Virus record (IMG/VR): IMGVR_UViG_3300027692_000005 | Location: 1-41,443 of that record | From: a virus | Strand: one strand, 5' to 3' | DNA length: 41,443 bases | Shown: piece after piece, positions 494-3,085 of the stretch | How the letters are laid out: each line of letters begins with the position of its first letter | Numbering within the stretch: the first letter of the stretch is position 1 | The notes under the pieces: model-generated | Told to the model about the DNA's origin: nothing | Databases searched by the model: none | Seen by the model: only the letters and a program-made list of their open reading frames with translations | Position numbers and translations under genes: made by a program

Positions 494-2848
494 GTGATCG
501 TAAGACTCAATCATCTCCCGGCGCAAGACGACTTCTACAATGCTACCGAAGACCAAGTCGCCTACATCGGCGGCGTCGGTTCGGGCAAGACCCAGGTCGG
601 CTCGGATGACATACTGAGGACGGCTTTTGAGTACCCGCGCTGCGGTAAAGGCGAAAAAACCCCTGGTATAGCGATCTGCAGCAACACGTTCCCGCAGCTG
701 ATCGACGGGACCATGGCTACGTTCTTCGATCGCTGTGAAGACTGGGGCGTTCACGTCGTTGACCGCATCAGAGCTGAGCACAAAATCTACCTCAAAGAGC
801 CCGATGCTTGGATAGGCGTCTATTCCGTTGACGAGCCCGATAAGTTCAAATCGTATGAGTTTTGCTACATCTGGATTGATGAAGCGCAGGCCGCAACGTG
901 GTCGAGGGCGGCCTACGATAAGCTGATGACTCGTCGGCGCGGCACCGAACGCCAGCGCAGACTCTATCCGAACATGCCGCTGCGCACCCGCATTACGGCT
1001 AATCCGCCATGGACGATGGATCATTGGCTCGTTGATCTGACGACCAAGGTGTCGCCGGTCACCGGAAAGATTCCTTGCCGCCTCATCTCGGCCGCTACGC
1101 AAGATAATCCGTTCCTGCCAGCCGAATACATCGCGCGTCTGCTGGAGAACTTCGATCCGGAACTCGCCGCGATCGAAATGGGCGGCAAGTTCGGAGACAT
1201 TGGCTACGGTCGAGTCTTCCGTCGGTTCAGCCGCGCGAAGCACGTCTATAGCGATAAGCGCGCAGCCGACGTCGGCCTGCCGGCGCTCCGCTACGATCCG
1301 AACATTCCGATCTGCTGGTCGCACGACTTCAACGTTGACCCGCTCTGCTCGGTGCTCTTTCAATGGCGCCGCGTTCGCGTCAACGGCTTCCAGAAGATCG
1401 TAATGTACGTTCTGGACGTGATGCAGCTTCGGCACGCGCTGATTGAAGATGCGGCCAAGGAGCTCCGCAACCGTCGCGACGCGCTACAGATCGCCGAGCG
1501 GCGTGGGATCGTGCTCTACGGTGATGCCACCGGCAATACGCAGACAAACCGACATACGGGCATCACAGACTTTGCGGCGCTGACTCAAGCGCTCGAAGCT
1601 GAGGATCTGTCTGGAGTCATTGCGCAGAAGAAGGTGGGCATTTCAAACCCACGGCGTGGCGCTCGATTTGCTGCGGCCAATCGAATGCTCGAGAACGGCA
1701 ACGGCGATATCGGCGTCGTCATTCGAGAAGAGGCGTGCATGCCGCTCGTCATCGACCTCGAGCGCATGTTTTACAAGCCGGGAACGCAAGAAGTCGAGCA
1801 ACCCAAATATAAAGACGGCGTGCCGAGCAAACTCTTAACCCATTGCTTTGTCGCCGGTACCGCTGTCGCCACCGAGACGGGTCAGGTTCCTATTGAAGAC
1901 ATTCGGCCTGGCGCAAAAGTATGGACGCGCGATGGGCTGTTTCCAGTAAGAGCCGCAGGGCTAACAGGATATCAACACGTATCCGACGTACTTCTCTCAA
2001 ACGGAGTAACGCTTACAGGCACGGCCGACCATCTTATTTGGACGAAGGAAGGGTTCCGTCCGTTGCAGACTCTCCGTGAAGGAGACGCAGTATCGACAAG
2101 TCCGAACCTCCCCTTATTATTTTCAAAGGCCGGAAGTACCGGGTGTATCCCGGCGACAAATACTACAGGAACGGGCGGCGCTATCTTCACCGAGATGTCT
2201 GGGCGGATGCTCACGGAAAGATTCCGCCGGGCCACGACGTTCATCACATTGACACTAACCGATTTAATAACAAGATCGAGAATTTGGAGTGCCTTCCAGC
2301 GGCTAAGCATCGCGATGAGCACAAAGAAGCTCGCGTTGCAGTCGGGAAACGGCTTGCTGTTAACGGCCACTTCGATAAGATGCGCAAACTCGCCAAAGAG
2401 TGGCACGCTTCGGAGGCGGGCCGCTTATGGCATCGAGAGCATGGTAAGCAGAGTTGGAGCGGCCGCAAGAAAGTGCGCGCGGTCTGCGAGCATTGCGGGA
2501 AAGCATATTGGCACAGGGCTACACGCAACAAGTATTGTGGGCGTAATTGCCTATCTGACGCAAGGCGGAAATCCGGCCTCGACGACGTTGCGCAAGTGTG
2601 CCCCATCTGCGGGGAAGCGTTTACCCGTAACAGATACAAGCCGCGTAAAACTTGCGGACGTGTTTGTGGTCAAGCTCTCCGAAAGAGAGACGCCTGAGTA
2701 CGTCTACGATTTAACCGTAGCCGGCACACCGGAGTTTTTCGCAAATGGCGTGCTCGTTCACAATTGTGCGGACGCCTTCAGTTACCCGATCGAAGAAGAG
2801 TACCCGGTCGTCATGGACAGCGACGGCGACCCTTCAACTTCACGTTAG
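494..2848 (+). CDS. terL: Terminase large subunit precursor, intein-containing
   Basis: This is the DNA-packaging motor: an ATPase that translocates phage DNA into the prohead through the portal, plus a nuclease that cuts the concatemer. The 784-residue precursor shows a Walker A motif GGVGSGKT (residues 26-33), a Walker B motif ending in D129-E130 within YIWIDEAQ, and RNase H-like nuclease acids at D278 (SHDFNVDP), D344 (LYGDATG) and D760 (CADAFSY). Residues 451-757 are an intein, beginning at Cys451, ending His-Asn and followed by Cys758. Removing it leaves a terminase of about 477 residues, normal for the family. The insertion falls right beside the last nuclease aspartate, so unspliced protein should be inactive as a nuclease. 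The start is GTG; no strong Shine-Dalgarno sequence is visible. The small subunit is not in the window. Confidence 0.92.
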   Translation: MIVRLNHLPAQDDFYNATEDQVAYIGGVGSGKTQVGSDDILRTAFEYPRCGKGEKTPGIAICSNTFPQLIDGTMATFFDRCEDWGVHVVDRIRAEHKIYLKEPDAWIGVYSVDEPDKFKSYEFCYIWIDEAQAATWSRAAYDKLMTRRRGTERQRRLYPNMPLRTRITANPPWTMDHWLVDLTTKVSPVTGKIPCRLISAATQDNPFLPAEYIARLLENFDPELAAIEMGGKFGDIGYGRVFRRFSRAKHVYSDKRAADVGLPALRYDPNIPICWSHDFNVDPLCSVLFQWRRVRVNGFQKIVMYVLDVMQLRHALIEDAAKELRNRRDALQIAERRGIVLYGDATGNTQTNRHTGITDFAALTQALEAEDLSGVIAQKKVGISNPRRGARFAAANRMLENGNGDIGVVIREEACMPLVIDLERMFYKPGTQEVEQPKYKDGVPSKLLTHCFVAGTAVATETGQVPIEDIRPGAKVWTRDGLFPVRAAGLTGYQHVSDVLLSNGVTLTGTADHLIWTKEGFRPLQTLREGDAVSTSPNLPLLFSKAGSTGCIPATNTTGTGGAIFTEMSGRMLTERFRRATTFITLTLTDLITRSRIWSAFQRLSIAMSTKKLALQSGNGLLLTATSIRCANSPKSGTLRRRAAYGIESMVSRVGAAARKCARSASIAGKHIGTGLHATSIVGVIAYLTQGGNPASTTLRKCAPSAGKRLPVTDTSRVKLADVFVVKLSERETPEYVYDLTVAGTPEFFANGVLVHNCADAFSYPIEEEYPVVMDSDGDPSTSR
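1844..2764 (+). mobile_element. Intein (Hint domain) in terminase, with a nested HNH gene
   Basis: This 307-residue element excises itself from the terminase by protein splicing. The N-terminal splicing block starts CFVAGTAVATETG and contains the block-B-like TADHLIW (T..H). The C-terminal block contains EYVYDLTVAGTPEFFANGVLVHN, split here as EYVYDLTV and FFANGVLVHN, followed by Cys+1. The nucleophile Cys1, penultimate His, terminal Asn and Cys+1 are all present, so class 1 splicing should work. Between the two blocks about 180 codons of this frame are low-complexity Ser/Thr/Arg/Ala-rich sequence with no family resemblance. The recognisable endonuclease is in another frame. The splice sites flank the third nuclease motif of the terminase, a typical choice of a highly conserved site. 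Confidence 0.88.
2092..2697 (+). CDS. HNH homing endonuclease nested out of frame in the intein
   Basis: A zinc-ribbon HNH endonuclease, likely the enzyme that spreads the intein by cutting empty terminase genes. The core reads YLHRDVW, then HDVHHIDTNRFNNKIENLE, the classic HNH beta-beta-alpha metal site. It is followed by two C-terminal zinc ribbons (VCEHC..YCGRNC and VCPIC..TCGRVC). It lies in the -1 frame relative to the terminase/intein and ends at its own TGA (2695-2697), while the intein frame stays open throughout. Family-like residues (IIFKGRKYRVYPG) precede the first GTG (2143), so translation probably starts upstream. An AUC at 2092 lies 7 nt after a good GAAGGAG (2078-2084). The GTG start at 2143 is the conservative alternative, giving 184 residues. 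No canonical slippery heptamer is seen at the frame boundary. Confidence 0.8.
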   Translation: MDKSEPPLIIFKGRKYRVYPGDKYYRNGRRYLHRDVWADAHGKIPPGHDVHHIDTNRFNNKIENLECLPAAKHRDEHKEARVAVGKRLAVNGHFDKMRKLAKEWHASEAGRLWHREHGKQSWSGRKKVRAVCEHCGKAYWHRATRNKYCGRNCLSDARRKSGLDDVAQVCPICGEAFTRNRYKPRKTCGRVCGQALRKRDA

Positions 2849-2857
2849 GAGCAAACC

Positions 2858-3085
2858 ATGGCTGCGTTCAATGTCAAGACCGGCTACGGCGCCAAAGGCG
2901 ACGGCGTCACCGACGATACCGCTGCGATTGAAGCCGCGTGTACCGCAGCGATCGCTGCCGGGACATCGAGCACGCTCGTCTTTCCGTTCGGCACCTACTA
3001 CGTCAAGGGCAGCAACACCGGAACCGATCCGATCGACGTGCAGGAGCAGTCCGTGACGGCGAAGACCGAAGAGTTTCCGACGTAG
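2858..3085 (+). CDS. Orphan pectate-lyase-superfamily N-terminal cap protein
   Basis: A 75-residue protein with AGGAG eight nucleotides before its ATG. It begins NVKTGYGAKGDGVTDDTAAI and continues to FPFGTYYV. This is the signature N-terminal strand and cap of the Pectate_lyase_3 right-handed beta-helix family, common on phage tailspikes and capsule depolymerases. The family normally runs for several hundred residues; here the reading frame stops after the first turn, with no downstream continuation in any frame. It could be a reduced adaptor or trimer cap, or a remnant of a tailspike. Its place between terminase and head genes is not where a tailspike is expected. Enzymatic activity is not expected from so short a piece. 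Confidence 0.65.
   Translation: MAAFNVKTGYGAKGDGVTDDTAAIEAACTAAIAAGTSSTLVFPFGTYYVKGSNTGTDPIDVQEQSVTAKTEEFPT

Follow-up and report, generated by a model that had tools for sequence, protein, structure and literature searches.

How can an intein be mobile when the endonuclease that would move it is not encoded in the frame of its splicing blocks? The question arises at the terminase large subunit gene (terL) of IMG/VR virus record IMGVR_UViG_3300027692_000005. We analyzed this metagenomic record over its whole length of 41,443 bases (the window), which also codes for terminase, major head, and tape-measure genes; the features described in the window are on its plus strand. The original prediction placed a homing endonuclease gene of the HNH type out of frame inside a terminase intein, and this arrangement was borne out: one open reading frame (ORF) runs from 494 to 2848, and an intact HNH gene with its own stop codon at 2695 to 2697 lies within it in the −1 frame. 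We conclude, with a probability of about 0.85, that a mobile intein sits in the nuclease domain of TerL and that a complete gene overlapping it in the −1 frame, rather than an in-frame domain, encodes its homing endonuclease. The sequence evidence for this conclusion is that both frames are intact, the layout is conserved, stop codons are avoided selectively, and empty insertion sites match exactly.

The ORF at 494 to 2848 (frame 2) encodes the exteins of TerL and the two ends of the intein in one frame with no internal stops. Pfam identified Terminase_3/Terminase_6N and Hint_2 (E value of 8e-12), the Intein_splicing model matched ORF residues 491 to 757 from both sides, bridging the insert, and TIGR01443 (intein C terminus) was also matched. 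The N-extein (494 to 1843) covers the ATPase domain and the greater part of the nuclease domain of the terminase; its GTG at 494 is only the start of the ORF and thus a putative terL start. The intein occupies 1844 to 2764, from Cys1 (codon 1844 to 1846), which is invariant in an alignment of related inteins, to the Asn of VHN (codon 2762 to 2764), and it ends in EFFANGVLVHN followed by Cys+1 (2765 to 2767). Its N-terminal Hint half (IntN; 1844 to 2113), with Cys1 and blocks A and B including TADH, was delimited by reading, Pfam, and AlphaFold, and its C-terminal half (IntC; 2645 to 2764; VYDLTV...FFANGVLVHN) by Pfam, TIGR01443, and AlphaFold. Between them, a stop-free spacer of low predicted order (2114 to 2644) holds the HNH gene in its −1 frame. 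The C-extein (2765 to 2848, stop codon at 2846 to 2848) begins CADAFSYP with Cys+1, carries TerL nuclease motif III, and was recognized from intein-free relatives.

An AlphaFold2 model of the intein, run with 57 relatives, showed a confident Hint domain (pLDDT of 97 to 98 for residues 1 to 80 and 96 to 98 for residues 271 to 307) whose halves are joined by a mostly low-confidence spacer (pLDDT mostly 42 to 56). The best Foldseek match in the PDB was the gp41-1 intein, with a TM score of 0.86 normalized to the target. The locus has Cys1, a His-Asn pair followed by Cys, a Hint fold built from both halves, and an exact in-frame insertion, as expected of an intein. With IntN and IntC on one ORF, it is not a fractured gene or split intein, and with the HNH outside the frame of the splicing blocks and ending at its own stop, it is not a bifunctional intein. 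Group I introns often house phage HNH genes, and the insert could be an RNA intron carrying an ORF, with the open host frame incidental. We give this idea next to no credence, since the Hint fold encoded in the host frame is complete and lacks none of the splicing residues, no Rfam match was found between 1600 and 3000 up to an E value of 1, and the avoidance of stops described below is specific to the host frame.

The HNH frame (frame 1) is open between TGA at 2077 to 2079 and TGA at 2695 to 2697. We place the nested gene at 2092 to 2697, in a frame open from 2080, with ATC at 2092 or GTG at 2143 as the putative start. The protein matched HNH_3 (E value of 8e-15) and, across residues 11 to 196 and thus over nearly its full length, phrog_15471 (E value of 1e-36), and its AlphaFold model had a pLDDT of 93.7. 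The catalytic set HH-D-N-N-H and two C2C2 zinc sets are all intact. The HNH_3 catalytic domain lies at 2179 to 2310 (residues 30 to 73, counted from 2092), the first zinc ribbon (C132-C135...C149-C153, with cysteines that do not vary among 62 nested HNH sequences) at 2485 to 2550, and the second (C170-C173...C188-C192) at 2599 to 2667, where its end overlaps IntC. The final ~53 nucleotides of the HNH gene double as the start of the C-terminal Hint block. At the other end, a Shine-Dalgarno (SD)-like candidate, AAGGAG (2079 to 2084), stands 7 nucleotides before ATC 2092 and also codes for REGD of intein block B.

The same layout recurs in relatives. It was found first in Tetrasphaera phage TJE1, Acinetobacter phage Highwayman, Rhodobacteraceae phage LS06-2018-MD07, an IMG/VR contig, and a clone of a gut phage, in each of which the TerL-intein ORF is continuous and the HNH gene lies exactly one frame behind it. 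An HNH-based scan yielded 63 loci, the window counted, with IntN and IntC in one ORF across the HNH; all 63 were in −1 phase and none had the HNH in frame. Four further nested loci have a divergent IntC. A second scan was seeded by IntC and the C-extein and not by the HNH, and of its best 80 IMG/VR loci, which are the best scoring for one query and include near-duplicates, 71 contained a complete HNH in −1 phase, five contained a partial or remnant HNH, one was a mini-intein (L121), and three had interrupted host frames (L122 to L124); none of the 80 had an in-frame HNH_3. The −1 phase total came to 154 loci with 127 distinct HNH sequences, and the layout also occurs in prophage or viral contigs of bacterial assemblies (e.g., L184, L187, L191, and L197). 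In two additional loci, L070 (1359 to 3650) and L078 (1383 to 3674), a terL intein carries an HNH of the same family in its remaining alternative frame, and the host frame has 0 stops versus about 11 to 13 expected.

Two compensating indels, from sequencing or mutation, could in principle have produced such a layout by shifting an in-frame HNH in one isolated copy. The relatives practically refute this account: the same layout stands in independent contigs and cultured phages whose related nested HNH proteins are only ~32 to 42% identical to that of the window, the HNH end overlaps IntC so that both frames are in simultaneous use, and an in-frame copy of this family was not found. The prediction had itself judged paired frameshifts less likely and had named in advance an in-frame fusion of this HNH among homologues as the observation that would overturn it; none appeared in the relatives.

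Nested, split, and free forms were mixed among one another in the HNH tree, whose resolution is weak. With L070 and L078 in the other frame as well, a single origin in one frame is unsupported. Four of 59 terL N-exteins also carry an upstream LAGLIDADG-type domain, which suggests a second, canonical intein in the same terL. L188 (1680 to 2740), from an archaeal metagenome-assembled genome contig, holds a terL intein in which a single stop breaks each of the intein and HNH frames, and we set it aside as a possible pseudogene in decay or a sequencing error.

To ask whether an open host frame is expected by chance, we shuffled synonymous codons within each HNH gene and counted stops in the intein frame. 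Over the 63 loci there were 0 intein-frame stops versus 128 expected, and the summed log10 P(open) was −87, a value that assumes independent loci although near relatives are not independent. The third frame, as a control, had 1091 stops versus 1146 expected, and the same frame in 31 other loci of the HNH family, mostly free-standing or split, had 179 versus 177. AT-rich members were individually significant, with 0 of 1000 shuffles open in L041, L024, and L068, for example. Stop avoidance is limited to the intein frame of the nested loci, and the earlier suggestion that selection keeps the splicing frame open is thus supported for the group.

What the intein frame encodes across the HNH gene is a separate matter. 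In pairs with a 20 to 30% HNH residue difference, the intein-frame translation of the same DNA differed by 36 to 62%, so that the HNH protein diverges about half as fast, and the spacer does not show the conservation expected of a second protein. The idea that selection acts on the spacer as on another protein is accordingly unsupported. The spacer diverges faster than the HNH encoded by the same DNA and therefore seemingly is kept open without being conserved as a protein; it seems to be stop-free filler. This qualifies the earlier reading, in which about 180 host-frame codons that encode no recognizable domain stay free of stops.

The nested HNH genes have start sites of their own. Among the 127 distinct genes, the best start candidate was ATG in 112, GTG in 9, and TTG in 5, mostly ~30 to 45 codons before a conserved LHR motif, and free-standing relatives start there too. 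SD matches of at least 4 nucleotides preceded 45 of 126 such ATGs versus 10 of 119 internal ATGs. Start codons at the family position and this SD enrichment make internal initiation the likely route to the nested HNH. Ribosomes might instead reach the HNH by −1 frameshifting from the intein frame, which would give a TerL/IntN-HNH fusion; the −1 position of the nested gene and the lack of a standard start at the family position in the window would fit this. We think it quite improbable, given the SD-enriched ATG just described, the stops that close the HNH frame just before that ATG in many loci, the two other endonuclease families and L070/L078 in the +1 frame, and the free-standing relatives that begin at the equivalent position. 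No slippery site was seen at 2090 to 2125, which was inspected by eye only, with no systematic test.

Several observations on the window copy itself, along with its metagenomic origin, weigh against our conclusion. The window departs from the family start codon, as few members do: ATG, GTG, and TTG are absent at the family position, and the first standard start, GTG 2143, would lose the first beta strand, yet it lies upstream of the whole HNH domain. Foldseek with the whole HNH protein gave only weak PDB matches, including HNH Cascade variants and I-HmuI, the latter being the best homing-endonuclease match at an E value of 0.26. The window by itself had 1.8 stops expected and a P(open) of 0.086, which is not significant; codon usage as the source of the open host frame is thus rejected by synonymous shuffling for the group, with the window alone at that P value.

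The missing start codon would also be explained if the window HNH were unexpressed and the element were drifting toward an endonuclease-free intein, as related inteins with a degraded HNH (L111, L112, L117, and L118) and the mini-intein L121 illustrate. We consider this unlikely, because all catalytic and zinc residues are intact, there are no stops or frameshifts across 200 codons, AAGGAG stands before ATC 2092, and GTG 2143 would still give a whole HNH domain. A noncanonical AUC start, a shorter GTG form, and a silenced gene are all possible for the window HNH, whose expression is less certain than that of its relatives, given its unusual start. The original prediction of an SD-like GAAGGAG at 2078 to 2084 was thus right as to position, with no ATG, GTG, or TTG start following where the family has one; its proposal that the enzyme is made separately fits most relatives, which have a start codon, often near an SD match, better than it fits the window.

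The insertion site points to mobility of the terL intein together with its nested gene. Nearly all tabulated nested HNH_3 inteins interrupt terL at its C-terminal nuclease motif (typically H|CxDAxRY), and nearly all have C1 and end in HN or SN followed by C or S. The N-exteins gave matches to terminase families. Intein-free terL genes 60 to 75% identical to that of the window align gap-free across the junction, with the empty site TH|LADAFSYP (L006 and L007, to whose TerL the N-extein is 75% identical) or TH|LADAWSYP (L008) where the predicted spliced window product has TH|CADAFSYP. One exact site is patchily occupied among terL relatives. Neighbors of terL include a free-standing phrog_15471 HNH gene in phages such as BP10, PAE1, EauM-23, and PhiSTP1. 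Homing into terL is what we would naturally infer from the site and the family context. Just after terL in the window, a short ORF (2858 to 3085) looks by eye like the N-terminal stretch of a tail protein resembling pectate lyase and is possibly a fragment.

We propose that one mRNA would yield two products. Ribosomes from the terL start would make a TerL-intein precursor that would splice itself to active TerL, and the ~180-residue spacer would be translated as mostly unstructured filler and removed along with the intein. Ribosomes starting within the intein would make the HNH enzyme with its two zinc ribbons, which would cut intein-free terL at nuclease motif III, and repair would copy the intein and the HNH gene jointly. 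Selection would retain the HNH as a protein and the intein frame as a stretch without stops. Splicing, internal initiation, cleavage, and homing are all steps that we infer from sequence.

The same HNH family also lies between separate IntN and IntC genes (L021 [Lactobacillus phage CL2], L038, L045, L051, L055, L060, and L062), and Brochothrix phage BL3 (L016) is a decayed split case. In L021 (1600 to 2760), IntN closes at a stop, a free-standing HNH gene is next, and a short unannotated IntC with the 3′ end of terL follows; TerL in such loci would need trans-splicing. In the three interrupted loci (L122 to L124), the HNH is still in −1 phase, although stops break the host frame and IntC may have a start of its own; the HNH sequences closest to theirs come from nested loci. 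We hypothesize on these sequence grounds that overlapped and split inteins interconvert. L111, L112, L114, L117, L118, and the mini-intein L121 are shortened terL inteins that retain HNH remnants or none at all and whose splicing frame is still open, as would be expected if the endonuclease is lost ahead of the intein. In L213 (1256 to 3662), two separate intein halves divide a terminase-like gene, and an apparent GIY-YIG-type gene, recognized by eye only, lies between them.

Out-of-frame nesting extends to other, unrelated endonucleases. An IntC scan of bacterial and archaeal assemblies revealed two more nested families, both in the +1 frame: PF01844 HNH in terL inteins at the Walker-B region (L201, L220, L231, and L237) and DUF559/MTES_1575, of the PD-(D/E)XK type, in a DnaX intein (L229) and in helicase inteins (L235, L240, L247, and L248). 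Each of these loci had 0 intein-frame stops versus 6 to 18 expected. An IMG/VR scan found DUF559 nested in the +1 frame in 59 of 65 distinct viral loci (L256 to L334), where each locus had 0 stops versus about 5 to 20 expected; the PF01844 type was nested in 10 distinct loci. The hosts of these inteins are DnaX-like clamp loaders, SF2/SNF2 helicases, and terminases, and DUF559-type insertion is typically at hhhDE|CH (Walker-B/DEAH motif). The inteins of the cultured Vibrio phages CP-T1 (L416, 1055 to 4036) and 1.194.O (L417, 1253 to 3955) hide an out-of-frame DUF559-type endonuclease in genes whose annotation names just one protein, a helicase or a coil-containing protein. The nested DUF559 gene resembles the PD-(D/E)XK type reportedly described from fractured genes. 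Among the loci scanned, no contiguous intein with an in-frame endonuclease was found in the HNH_3, PF01844, or DUF559 families. The only in-frame HNH match of the census was an apparent ribonucleotide reductase intein of another type (L221, 3 to 3158), and because it exists, out-of-frame coding is not universal.

Several known systems resemble this locus in part. The fractured genes that Dassa and colleagues reportedly described in 2009 are split inteins with a free-standing endonuclease between the halves. As in our split HNH loci, they have a separate endonuclease gene between IntN and IntC, but their host frame is interrupted and splicing must be in trans, whereas the host frame of the window is continuous and splicing in cis is expected. 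The free-standing phrog_15471 HNH genes that adjoin terL belong to the same family as the window HNH over their full length; unlike the nested genes, they have no overlap, and their other frame is not under selection. Canonical bifunctional inteins (e.g., PI-SceI and those of mycobacteriophage TerL) share with the window a Hint domain, in an essential phage gene that is often TerL, and a homing endonuclease, which in them is an in-frame domain and in the window a separate overlapping gene. Mycobacteriophage TerL inteins are in the ATPase domain (PMC5050341), in contrast to the window intein at nuclease motif III.

The closest precedent is the ShiLan domain/Pacc40 insertion (Arsenault, Gosselin, and Gogarten 2025; PMC11855218), an out-of-frame HNH in a phage methylase with an open host frame, for which a GTG start was proposed and homing was inferred from distribution. 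Splicing motifs and fold are absent there, and its authors rejected an intein and thought that the insert stays in the methylase (PMC11855218); both it and the window have an out-of-frame HNH in an open phage gene, but only the window has a complete Hint domain around it. Our literature search found ShiLan as the only direct precedent, with possible overlap in two works known by citation: PMC11855218 cites Gosselin et al. 2025 (bioRxiv 2025.01.02.630785; actinobacteriophage inteins, "non-canonical architecture") and Gorbalenya 1998 ("Non-canonical inteins") for overlapping frames in actinobacteriophages. As far as that citation conveys, these works may already describe part of the overlap-encoded intein endonucleases, and what our analysis may add to them is the multifamily census, the test by synonymous shuffling, and the group at the TerL nuclease site.

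We regard it as an evenly balanced proposition that mobile inteins have a third general architecture, with overlap-encoded endonucleases, in addition to the in-frame and split ones. This architecture would be the usual one for several non-LAGLIDADG families in phage inteins, would have arisen repeatedly in both alternative frames, and would interconvert with split inteins as the host frame gains or loses stops, which would be one route to naturally split inteins. Intein endonucleases are normally sought in the host frame only, and these enzymes therefore stay invisible; in the records of TJE1, Highwayman, LS06, and CP-T1, for example, a single long terminase or helicase is annotated and the endonuclease is not. 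The loci described here supply many new candidate inteins and specific nucleases. More than 100 natural dual-coding genes, with free-standing relatives, empty sites, and degraded copies as controls, become available for the study of overlapping-gene evolution. For the inteins themselves, the overlapping layout would uncouple the dose of the enzyme from expression of the host protein, would admit free-standing endonucleases into mini-inteins without in-frame fusion, and offers a testable link to split inteins.

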